From: Phycisphaerales bacterium
GTDB lineage: Bacteria; Planctomycetota; Phycisphaerae; Sedimentisphaerales; Anaerohalosphaeraceae
Direction: 5' to 3'
DNA length: 19,236 nucleotides
Assembly (NCBI GenBank): GCA_011053245.1
Contig: DRGS01000055.1
Span: forward strand, 1-19,236
The notes beneath the pieces are model-generated. The model made no database searches. It was not told the origin of the DNA and saw nothing but the letters and a program-made list of their open reading frames with translations. Both the position numbers and the translations under genes were made by a program. Shown in pieces: positions 4,424 through 19,236 of this stretch. How positions within the stretch are numbered: the first letter of the stretch is position 1; each line of letters begins with the position of its first letter.

Positions 4424-6016
4424 TCAATCCTCACCGACAGGCTTTGGCGATTGCGACGATTCACCGGGTGTATTATCCGATGTGTCGCCGCTTTCATCGG
4501 GCTTATCCTCTGATTCCGAGATCGGTTCATCCGGGGCTGTCGGGTAAGCGATACGTCCGTGATGATGTGCGGCAAGCGATTTGGAAAGAGCTTTCTCAAT
4601 GAAACTCAGCTCTCTAAGCGTCAGATCGCACTCATCGAATTGCCCATCCTGTAAACGTTTCATCGCCATATTATGAACCACTGCTTCGACCTTCGTTGGC
4701 GACATATCTGAAAGTGACCGCGATGCGCTCTCGCTGGCATCTGCAAGCATGACTATCGCAGCTTCTTTTGATCGCGGTTTCGGGCCGGGGTATCTAAACT
4801 CCGATTCCGATACCGGGGTCTGCTTGTCATCCTGCTTTTTCTTTGCTGCATGGAAAAAATATTCGATCAACGTGGTCCCATGGTGCGTTTCAATGAACTG
4901 TCTGAGTATCGCGGGCAGTCCGTATTCTTTTGCTATCTCAATGCCGTCTTTGACATGGCCGACAATTACCAACTGGCTCATTGCCGGCGACAACTGTTCA
5001 TGGCGACTGGCCGAACCCATCTGGTTCTCAACAAAATAAGGAGACTTGTTGATCTTGCCGATGTCATGATAGTATGCTCCGACGCGACAGAGCAGACCAT
5101 TTGCGCCTATCGTTTCCGCAGCGGATTCGGCAATGGTTCCTATCAAAAGGCTGTGGCTAAATGTTCCGGGGGCCTCCATCGCAAGTTTTTTGAGAAGCGG
5201 CTGGTTTGCGTCACTGTAGTCCATGAGCGTCATGCTGGTCGCTATCCCGAAAGCCTTTTCGATGATCGGTAAGAACCCCTGAATGACAAGTCCGACAGCT
5301 ACGGTAACGGCGGCGGCGGCACCTGAATCAAGAAATATTCTTATGGTATCTTTCTGCTGGATAATTCCAATTGCCGTTGCTGTAACAAATACCGCGACCG
5401 AAGCCAGCGTCGATACTTCGATCAACTTCATGCGTGTCCGTATTTCTCTCAGTGAAAAACAGCAGGTAACGACACCGGCCATCATCGTCAGGAAAAGTTC
5501 CACTGTCGCGATCTCACTTACCGCAAAGCAGGCAAGTATGCAGTAGAACAATGTCATTCCGAGAGCAAATCGCTGATTGTATGCTATCGTCAGTATTATC
5601 GCGCTCGTAACGGCGGAACCGGTCGCGAGGTATATCCACTCTTCGAAAAGCGAACCGACCCTTGTAAGAACCAACAGGACGAGGAACAATCCCGCCAGTG
5701 CGATCATTCTTGTCGGTTTGGACATAACCCTTTTCTGATAGTGATGTACATAAAACGCCGCTCCGACGCAGACGAGTATGGTGATCGCAGTGATCGCCGA
5801 GACCGCTGCCAGCGGCCGCCATCTGAAGGGGAACAGGCCGCCTGCGGTATCTATGCTAAGCAATGTGATAACCGATGCTGTAAACAATACTAACACTGTG
5901 ATAGCAACCGGCAGAGTGCTGTTGAGGAACTGCCTTAAATATACAAAGCGATCCGCAGTTATGTTATCACGCACATGCTGGCGTCTTGCACTGACTTTCT
6001 TTTTCTTTATGGCCAT
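4424..6016 (-). CDS. pgpH: 7TM-HD family c-di-AMP phosphodiesterase (PgpH-like) lacking the extracellular domain
   Basis: PgpH-type proteins hydrolyse the second messenger c-di-AMP through a cytoplasmic HD domain. Here a basic N-terminus is followed by about seven membrane segments (near 35-55, 67-90, 103-119, 127-146, 150-187, 200-218, 226-250). The HD domain, about 283-485, contains all expected metal ligands: GTFSHSLL (H288), AYYHDIGK (H317-D318), VGHVKDG (H354), ETHHGTT (H378-H379) and MLADASES (D426). The signature FVENQ is also present. Family members are often about 700 residues because a large extracellular HDED domain sits between the first two helices; here only about a dozen residues lie there, giving 530. 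The tail from 493 is acidic and Pro/Ser-rich, probably disordered. It lies between phoH (15 bases upstream) and ybeY (7 bases downstream). Confidence 0.88.
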   Translation of the reverse strand: MAIKKKKVSARRQHVRDNITADRFVYLRQFLNSTLPVAITVLVLFTASVITLLSIDTAGGLFPFRWRPLAAVSAITAITILVCVGAAFYVHHYQKRVMSKPTRMIALAGLFLVLLVLTRVGSLFEEWIYLATGSAVTSAIILTIAYNQRFALGMTLFYCILACFAVSEIATVELFLTMMAGVVTCCFSLREIRTRMKLIEVSTLASVAVFVTATAIGIIQQKDTIRIFLDSGAAAAVTVAVGLVIQGFLPIIEKAFGIATSMTLMDYSDANQPLLKKLAMEAPGTFSHSLLIGTIAESAAETIGANGLLCRVGAYYHDIGKINKSPYFVENQMGSASRHEQLSPAMSQLVIVGHVKDGIEIAKEYGLPAILRQFIETHHGTTLIEYFFHAAKKKQDDKQTPVSESEFRYPGPKPRSKEAAIVMLADASESASRSLSDMSPTKVEAVVHNMAMKRLQDGQFDECDLTLRELSFIEKALSKSLAAHHHGRIAYPTAPDEPISESEDKPDESGDTSDNTPGESSQSPKPVGED

Positions 6017-16395: not shown

Positions 16396-17376
16396 CTACT
16401 TGACAAGCTCGACGGTTAATTTCTGATCGACTGTCAACATAGGCGGCGTATCGCCAAGCGGCAGCATAAAACTTGCGCTAACTTCCATTTTGTATTGCTG
16501 GGTATCTTTTTCTATTAAGTTTCTCTTAAGGTCAAACACCTGCGTGCCGCCGCCCTCGATAGAAAGAAATCTATATTGTATCAGGAAACCAAAAACACCC
16601 TTCATTTGAAACCTGCCTGAATGCGGCTTGGGCCAGTCACCAAGTTTCTCGTCACTAATAGCATAAGTACTCTTGATCATTGCCTTTCGCTCCTGCTCCG
16701 TTTCGATCACCTCATCCAGCACATACGTTGTCTCTCTTGTCGGTGGCCAATGTATCGACATGGGGATCATTTGCAGAGCCTTCCACTCGGAGCCTATTGC
16801 AACCCCTTTGATAGGATCCTTGATCGTCGAAATCGAATCCCACAGATACCACTGAAGCGCAACGAAGTCATGGAGCATGTCGGGGTTTTTCACCAGCCTC
16901 CGACCTTCCTTTTTCGGGTCAAAGGCCGTTTTGCCTACCTTTTCGAGAAGGCTGGTAAGCTCGGAGTACTCGACGATCTTTCCGGTAGGCGTTAGTTTGA
17001 ACGTGAAACTCTTTCCGGCAAGATTTTCGACTGCGTCTTTCTTTCCACCTCTACTCGTGAAAGATTTCCTTTTTACTTTCGCCGACTTACATGTTGCCTC
17101 TATCGTGCTAAGTCCATACGGGTTGACCTCGACAGGTTTGTACACCATGACAAGCTCAAGTCTTTCGCTCATCTTATCCGTCTTGCTTGTGTTTTTTGCC
17201 TTTGATGCGATCGTAAGATCGATATTTCTTTGTGAGACCATTTTGTATTCCAGTTCCTGGCCTGCTTCAAATGACAATACGAGAAGTTCCCGCCCGCCGC
17301 CAACTTCGCAACCGCCGGCAATAGCCCCAACAATGCAAGTACATACAAATACGATAATATTTTTCATGCTGAACAT
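16396..17376 (-). CDS. Uncharacterised secreted lipoprotein, paralogue of the next upstream gene
   Basis: Function unknown. The 326-residue product starts at ATG 17376, chosen because AGGAAGG lies about ten bases upstream. It begins with a signal peptide (MFSMKNIIVFVCTCIVGAIAG) ending at Cys23, consistent with lipid attachment. The mature part is strand-rich with segments LSFEAGQELEYKMV (35-47), LAGKSFTFKLTPTGKIVEY (119-137), PDMLHDFVAL (165-174), IGSEWK (194-199) and IHWPPTRETTYVLDEV (208-223). The same blocks occur in the same order in the adjacent 333-residue protein, indicating an ancient tandem duplication. It most resembles the broad DUF6263-like class of periplasmic lipoproteins, but this is only a suggestion. 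It is 45 bases upstream of the HIT gene. Confidence 0.8.
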   Translation of the reverse strand: MFSMKNIIVFVCTCIVGAIAGGCEVGGGRELLVLSFEAGQELEYKMVSQRNIDLTIASKAKNTSKTDKMSERLELVMVYKPVEVNPYGLSTIEATCKSAKVKRKSFTSRGGKKDAVENLAGKSFTFKLTPTGKIVEYSELTSLLEKVGKTAFDPKKEGRRLVKNPDMLHDFVALQWYLWDSISTIKDPIKGVAIGSEWKALQMIPMSIHWPPTRETTYVLDEVIETEQERKAMIKSTYAISDEKLGDWPKPHSGRFQMKGVFGFLIQYRFLSIEGGGTQVFDLKRNLIEKDTQQYKMEVSASFMLPLGDTPPMLTVDQKLTVELVK

Positions 17377-17466
17377 AAAACGCAAACCTTCCTGACGATA
17401 ATTAAAGCGACAATGACTTCGCAGCCGCATCTTCCACTTAGCGTACCGCACAGATCCAACTTTCCA

Positions 17467-18468
17467 CTAATTCTGCTTTTCGATACTGATCGACCGGATA
17501 AATCCCATCGTCAGTGCATCCGGCTCCATCTCGGCACTTGCACCTGACGGCATTTCCGCCGCGACATAGGTGCCGACGAATTTCTCGTTGTAATTTTCAA
17601 CTCTTCCGTCTTTGAGAACGATCTGGCCGGTGTACTTTTCTTCAGGATCGAATATCTTTGAGAACGGCCCCATACCCCTCACTTTTTGACCGTCAATTGC
17701 ATCAAAATTCTCTATGGCATTCATTTCGATCTGGACCGACTGCTGGCCATCTTCTTTAGCTACTTGCTTTACCGTATAGGTCTTTGCAAAAGATTTTGGT
17801 GCCCAGCGAAGACCCGGGTGAGATGCCTCTATCCTCTTCCACGACTGACCTTTACTAACCGAACTACTCCCGCTATCCGGTAGAGCGAGTATCGAATGCA
17901 GTGTGACCAGCCTGTCGTCATTTAAAAGCCCCCTTGCCACTTGGCTGTCCTGGCCTGTTTTTACGGCTTTTCTTATGGCGTTAGCGTCAACTACTGTTAC
18001 ACTACCGTCAGGTGACATCTTGATCTTGTAGCTTTGACCTATCAGTTTCGCAAAAGGTTTCTTCAGGTCAGCTTGACGGGTACTGTCAAAGTCAAAATTT
18101 ACTTTGTTTTTTGTCTCGGAATGATATGTGATAGCCTCAATAGTGATCTTGACGACAGCGTCCCCATTTTCTTCGACGCTTTCGATCTCCTGAAGGGATG
18201 TTATACTGATCTTGGTACCGCTTTTCTTTTCGTCCAATTTCTTCAGCGAGGGCTGTTCGAACTTATAGTCTATTCTTGTTTCCGTCACCGTCTTATAGGT
18301 CGCTTTTTCTCCGGCGACAAATTGCAACTGCACATCGGCTTTTTGCAAACTTTCCTTGGTTGCAGCGGTTCCTTTAAGCCCCGGATCTCCTTGCGGCCCG
18401 CACCCGGCACCAAAAAACATTAGACAAGTACAGCTTAATATGGACCAAACCGTAATTTTCCGTAACAT
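17467..18468 (-). CDS. Uncharacterised secreted lipoprotein, first gene of the - strand run
   Basis: Function unknown. The start is ATG 18468, with GGAG six bases upstream; an in-frame TTG at 18483 would add five residues and lacks an SD. The 333-residue product has a signal peptide (MLRKITVWSILSCTCLMFF) ending before Cys23, the same lipidation position as its paralogue. A GPQGDPGLKG linker follows, then a strand-rich domain with LQFVAGEKATYKTV (48-61), LIGQSYKIKMSPDGSVTVV (142-160), DDRLVTLHSILALP (184-197), KGQSWK (206-211) and LRWAPKSFAKTYTVKQV (220-236). These align block for block with the downstream lipoprotein although identity is low. A leftward promoter candidate lies at 18543-18570. 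The 90-base gap to the paralogue has no clear terminator, so the two are probably co-transcribed. Confidence 0.82.
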   Translation of the reverse strand: MLRKITVWSILSCTCLMFFGAGCGPQGDPGLKGTAATKESLQKADVQLQFVAGEKATYKTVTETRIDYKFEQPSLKKLDEKKSGTKISITSLQEIESVEENGDAVVKITIEAITYHSETKNKVNFDFDSTRQADLKKPFAKLIGQSYKIKMSPDGSVTVVDANAIRKAVKTGQDSQVARGLLNDDRLVTLHSILALPDSGSSSVSKGQSWKRIEASHPGLRWAPKSFAKTYTVKQVAKEDGQQSVQIEMNAIENFDAIDGQKVRGMGPFSKIFDPEEKYTGQIVLKDGRVENYNEKFVGTYVAAEMPSGASAEMEPDALTMGFIRSISIEKQN

Positions 18469-18542
18469 ACTCTTCTCCTTCAATATCTAAAGTAAATTGA
18501 TATAACTGCTATTGCAGTAAGACTTTTCAAACACAATGCTCA

Positions 18543-18699: not shown

Positions 18700-18763
18700 A
18701 GGCAGTGTTGCGTGTTGTCGCATACGACCTAAAAAGTTTTAAGTCCTTATGGAGAAAGATATT

Positions 18764-19113
18764 ATGAGAAGTGACACAGTAAAAAAAGGTTTCCAGCGTG
18801 CCCCTCACAGAGGCCTGCTCCACGCCTGCGGCCTCAAAGATGAAGATATATCCAAGCCGTTCATCGCCGTTGCCAACAGTTTTTGTGAGGTCGTACCCGG
18901 CCATGTTCATCTTAATAAGGTCGCCCAAACGGTCAAAGACGCTATCCGCCAGGCAGGCGCGGTTCCCTTTGAATTCAACACGATCGCCATCTGCGACGGA
19001 ATAGCAATGGGTCATAGCGGCATGAAATACTCCCTTGCATCACGCGAGATCATCGCCGATTCCGTTGAAACCATGGTACAAGCCCACCGTTTCGACGGCA
19101 TGGTATGTATTCC
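18764..19113 (+). CDS. ilvD: Dihydroxy-acid dehydratase IlvD, N-terminal part, interrupted by an inverted junction
   Basis: IlvD is the Fe-S enzyme that makes the 2-keto acid precursors of valine, isoleucine and leucine. The ATG at 18764 has GGAG nine bases upstream; the in-frame ATG at 18749 overlaps that SD and is not preferred. The product follows the family closely: [50 protein letters not shown] (with a likely cluster or metal-ligand Cys and Asp), [10 protein letters not shown] and [10 protein letters not shown]. After CIP the family expects NCDK, but the reading frame continues with unrelated residues to a TGA at 19157-19159. From about 19113 the opposite strand instead encodes a later part of IlvD. 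The gene as presented is therefore broken; whether this is biological or an artefact is discussed under findings. Confidence 0.9.
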
Positions 19114-19235
19114 GAGCAGCTTCCCTCGCCGGGACAGCCGGAACATTCGAGTTCCTTGAGTTCATCTTCGCCAATATTACCTGCATTGAAAGCGGCGATG
19201 CCCTCAAAAATGCTGATCAGGTCAACGGTTTTGCC
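19113..19235 (-). pseudogene. ilvD: Inverted internal fragment of ilvD
   Basis: Read on the - strand from 19235 to 19113, the frame is fully open for 41 codons. It begins [19 protein letters not shown], continues with [18 protein letters not shown] and ends SCS. This is the IlvD stretch that normally lies downstream of the CIPNCDK motif and directly before GMFTANSMNC, and includes the Cys of the GSC iron-sulfur ligand motif. So the same gene appears first forward to CIP and then backward from GSCS. The segment between CIP and GKTVDL (a few tens of codons in family members) is not in the window. The fragment runs to the window edge. Confidence 0.85.
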
Positions 19236-19236
19236 G

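Follow-up and report, generated by a model that had tools for sequence, protein, structure and literature searches.

Chimeric joins formed during multiple displacement amplification (MDA) are the closest described counterparts of the structure analysed here. In a study of single-cell MDA (Lasken and Stockwell 2007, PMC1855051), 85% of 475 chimeras were inverted, usually with the sequence between the two segments deleted. Priming at 2-21 complementary bases accounted for more than 70% of the junctions, and the joined segments tended to be ones less than 10 kb apart.

The window, which is the whole stretch of DNA that we analysed, is one entire contig of 19,236 bases, since its plus-strand IlvD product (P0001) is recorded on a single contig of exactly that length, and the join that we found in its ilvD gene is therefore located at a contig end, 125 bases from the tip. 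As in the MDA chimeras described in that study, the second segment is inverted (window 19235-19112 against 3443-3566 of L001, the closest genome locus fetched, a planctomycete MAG contig), an intervening stretch is skipped (nt 351-455 of the gene), and the breakpoints lie 230 nt apart, well within 10 kb. Two bases are certainly shared at the join and up to four may be, which also agrees with that study, although this is a weak criterion. The likeness to MDA chimeras concerns the anatomy of the join, which is known here from the contig sequence alone. A fold-back in ordinary library preparation would yield the same join anatomy. Our literature searches on library fold-back chimeras and on misassembly at contig ends yielded nothing useful here. 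The features at this contig end are as follows.

18749..19113, plus strand: 5' part of ilvD (dihydroxy-acid dehydratase), from translation, Pfam and comparison with L001
19112..19115, no strand: junction, bases fitting both arms; CC certain (19112-19113), CCGA at most
19114..19159, plus strand: spurious tail and stop of the plus-strand reading frame, read through the inverted arm, from translation
19112..19236, minus strand: inverted later ilvD segment (gene nt 456-580), GKTVDL...CPGEGSCS, running to the contig end, from translation, Pfam and L001

The forward arm has two in-frame ATG candidates, at 18749 (MEKDIMRSD...) and 18764 (MRSD...). Its translation follows IlvD as far as ...FDGMVCIP (about 19113), and is continued by unrelated residues up to a stop at 19157-19159. 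The product matched profile positions 1-88 of PF00920 (E 5.7e-38, score 131.3, gathering score 27), and blastn aligned window 18764-19113 with L001 2987-3336 in the forward direction at 78% identity. The preliminary description had read the plus strand as correct IlvD up to about 19113, and translation, Pfam match and alignment all bear this out. Numbered from the 18764 ATG, the arm is colinear with the gene up to nt ~350, so that 350 of about 1,665 nt, roughly the first fifth of the gene, are in normal orientation in the window.

The minus strand of 19113-19235 translates to a 41-residue later segment of IlvD. When searched as a protein, this frame aligned to profile positions 122-160 of PF00920 (E 1.5e-06, score 28.1, gathering score 27), and blastn placed window 19235-19112 on L001 3443-3566 in the reversed direction (77%, E 1.35e-20), in agreement with the earlier assignment of this strand to a later part of IlvD and with the outcome that a protein search was expected to give. 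At E 1e-10, the DNA-level match of the inverted arm was found in L001 and L006 only, among 80 loci. At the level of sequence, the match of the inverted arm to ilvD is far beyond chance, and by their Pfam scores, each above the gathering score, both arms are assigned to the IlvD family PF00920. In the numbering of the relatives' genes, the contig end runs from nt 1-350 of ilvD straight into inverted nt 580-456 and lacks nt 351-455; the two breakpoints are 230 nt apart.

The two arms had been described as sharing a few bases at most (CC or CCG), and this holds: CC is certain and CCGA is the maximum. The four-base overlap would hold with CCG at the unseen codon 117, the codon found there in some relatives; the relatives read CC[C/G/T]AA at codons 117-118, and L001 reads GCTGCTCGGG at codons 191-194. 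Microhomology at the join is weak evidence, because by our own calculation a match of at least 2 bases is expected in ~16% of random joins. The DNA around the join is unremarkable as a hairpin (z-score -1.87; 8/200 shuffles fold at least as well). At the other contig end, no fold-back with an arm derived from within the contig was detected. We considered whether a de Bruijn k-mer of k=127 had determined where the contig ends and dropped the idea, as the arm including the certain shared bases is 125 bases long. An arm of this length may exceed what one short read adds at a large assembly k-mer, so that its support may come from more than a single read, a point against the chimera.

Apart from its tip, the contig looks like an ordinary bacterial chromosome in its predicted gene content. 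Pfam identified RuvA, RuvB, RecO, YbeY, PhoH, a cytidylyltransferase, undecaprenyl diphosphate synthase, adenylosuccinate synthetase, PgpA and members of the HD and HIT families among the other genes. The named best protein matches of the contig products are planctomycetes, several of them carrying the Sedimentisphaerales label. Upstream of ilvD and on the opposite strand, two neighbouring proteins matching DUF6263 are encoded (window 16399-18483, minus strand). A reading frame at 5216-6001 of the locus L094 is placed divergently beside its ilvD like this pair, and the likeness is one of position alone.

The preliminary description had called for comparison with the ilvD of a close relative. 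We searched with the inverted segment followed by a relative's continuation, and among the best 120 of 8000 scored candidates found P0123, an intact and colinear IlvD of 560 residues on a different contig of 7964 bases, with 98% identity across the 60 residues that this search scored. P0123 is identical to the plus-strand product at 114/118 aligned residues, residue 118 being already past the join, and to the inverted product at 40/41 residues. The 35 residues missing between the arms of the window are present in P0123 in normal order. Since both arms are near-identical to P0123, both derive from one ordinary gene. They are thus parts of one IlvD of the ordinary planctomycete type (PF00920) and, unlike the usual IlvD genes, the copy in the window ends in what is very probably a chimeric tip.

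The same order was found in more distant relatives. In all 79 testable loci (80 were fetched), the counterpart of the inverted segment lies downstream in normal orientation; the one locus left out, L031, ends 20 bases after its N-terminal match. Three relatives checked singly each had one ilvD match, which was intact. In the set of 161 genomes from the order of L001's genome, at least 113 carry a single IlvD match on one strand from query residue 7 or lower to residue 559 or higher of 560, counted by eye among the matches listed, and one stop mark was seen in 5 of those 113 rows. The remaining 48/161 are partial, distant or matchless, with 15/161 having no match by the rows listed. We also searched for a genome of the same species with the DNA of the 5' part. 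It matched 129/161 genomes with a best identity of 79%. No same-species genome is thus among the 161, and the evidence for an intact gene therefore rests on P0123, which is a protein record, and on more distant relatives. As to plasmid records, 60 matched the query, none of them over 80% of its length, and the 20 matches listed reach no further than query base 367, which is the join.

Taken together, these results make it very probable that the contig tip is an artefactual chimeric join from amplification or library preparation. The preliminary description had preferred template switching at a contig end to an inversion or a switch, and the position at the contig end, the intact colinear genes of relatives, the minimal microhomology, the lack of inverted repeats beyond chance and the likeness to most MDA chimeras support that choice. 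We infer that ilvD is intact and colinear in the window's own organism, and that a chimeric molecule was formed as follows. During amplification or library preparation, a 3' end of DNA lying at nt 580 of ilvD (...TCGG) would fold back and anneal to its own strand or the sister strand at nt 349-352, where CCGA or CC is complementary to it. These 2-4 bases would prime synthesis at nt 350, which lies 230 nt upstream, and extension would produce a molecule with ilvD nt 1-350 beside inverted nt 580-456. The assembler would retain this molecule as a dead end of the contig, while the living cell would keep its ilvD intact and colinear.

The alternative that survives best is a real, recent intragenic inversion of ~230 bp (nt 351-580), carried by some or all members of the population and inactivating ilvD. 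The join looks as the left end of such an inversion would, but the near-identical relative P0123 has an intact gene, the 79/79 testable loci are colinear and the join is located at a contig end, so that we consider this reading improbable. An inversion would also have a right-hand piece, and among the best 120 of 8000 scored candidates no C-terminal fragment from the same species starting with (G)MFTANS was found. In that search, with the last 362 residues of P0123, only the intact P0123 itself exceeded 90% identity among the best 120 of 8000; this is a weak negative, because fragments below ~199 residues were not candidates and other contigs of the organism may be outside the database. P0301 (361 aa, starting with MFTANS) was considered as the right-hand fragment and rejected: with 79% identity to the query, it is too distant for the species of the window. 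A literature search on ilvD inversions found none. That a recent 230-bp inversion in ilvD is polymorphic in a planctomycete population and yields branched-chain amino acid auxotrophs in nature is more doubtful still.

A site-specific switch is unlikely. What speaks for a programmed invertible segment turning ilvD on and off is the inverted orientation itself and nothing further, and the opposite orientation occurs in 0/79 testable loci. The surroundings of the breakpoints in 12 relatives contain no inverted repeat beyond chance: within +-50 bases of the two breakpoints, the longest exact inverted match was 5-8 bases, and at least 49/500 shuffles reached it each time. This test used the relatives' flanks on the right side rather than the window's own, and the window itself holds only short partial inverted pairs. 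The earlier remark that the join lacks long inverted repeats agrees with these results. No site-specific recombinase was named by Pfam among the 18 main ORFs (of 54 listed) on the 19-kb contig, where ruvA, ruvB and recO are present and 3/18 ORFs have no Pfam match; the scan covered this contig, and a recombinase gene may lie elsewhere in the genome. A literature search on intragenic invertible DNA found none. With all this evidence, we give such a switch hardly any chance, and the inverted tip is most likely an ordinary artefact rather than a new genetic switch.

Finally, a genuine partial inverted duplication adjoining an intact or truncated ilvD, that is, a genomic fold-back rearrangement, would give a join identical to that of an artefactual fold-back, but the contig stops 125 bases past the join with no continuation visible, the three singly checked relatives each have one intact ilvD match and 79/79 testable loci are colinear, which leaves this reading with barely any probability.

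The probable chimera at the tip matters for annotation. It yields a false 'IlvD' of 131-136 residues with an apparent stop codon, which is open to misreading as a pseudogene, as auxotrophy or as an inversion switch. Automated annotation should therefore be treated with caution, and contig ends should be inspected for inverted arms ahead of such claims.

Broken ilvD genes were also observed elsewhere. Four contigs, from four genomes of the order-level set, end inside ilvD (L097, G025 C12; L098, G036 C118; L099, G074 C310; L100, G051 C112). Their breaks fall at about P0123 residues 201-224, just past the conserved GSCSGMFTANSMNCLCEA, and the match stops no more than 2 bases short of the contig end. 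Assembly breaks may be favoured past GSCSGMFTANSMNCLCEA because its DNA is conserved between species.

Other IlvD matches are shortened within long open frames, and inteins were considered for them. The three that we read show runs of X at the break, with ilvD interrupted after query residues ~455 (L094, G034), ~417 (L095, G030) and ~343 (L096, G032), and the sequence beyond the runs is not IlvD-like by eye. Runs of X, which are N in the DNA, are gaps or masked stretches, so that these three loci show no sign of an intein and their long fused reading frames are not real proteins. The IlvD match of G008 is also shortened. Four partial IlvD proteins (P0004, P0007, P0045 and P0073) have aberrant tails right after FDG[LM][VI] or slightly later, which may be frameshifts or chimeras; P0073 was found on 27 contigs.
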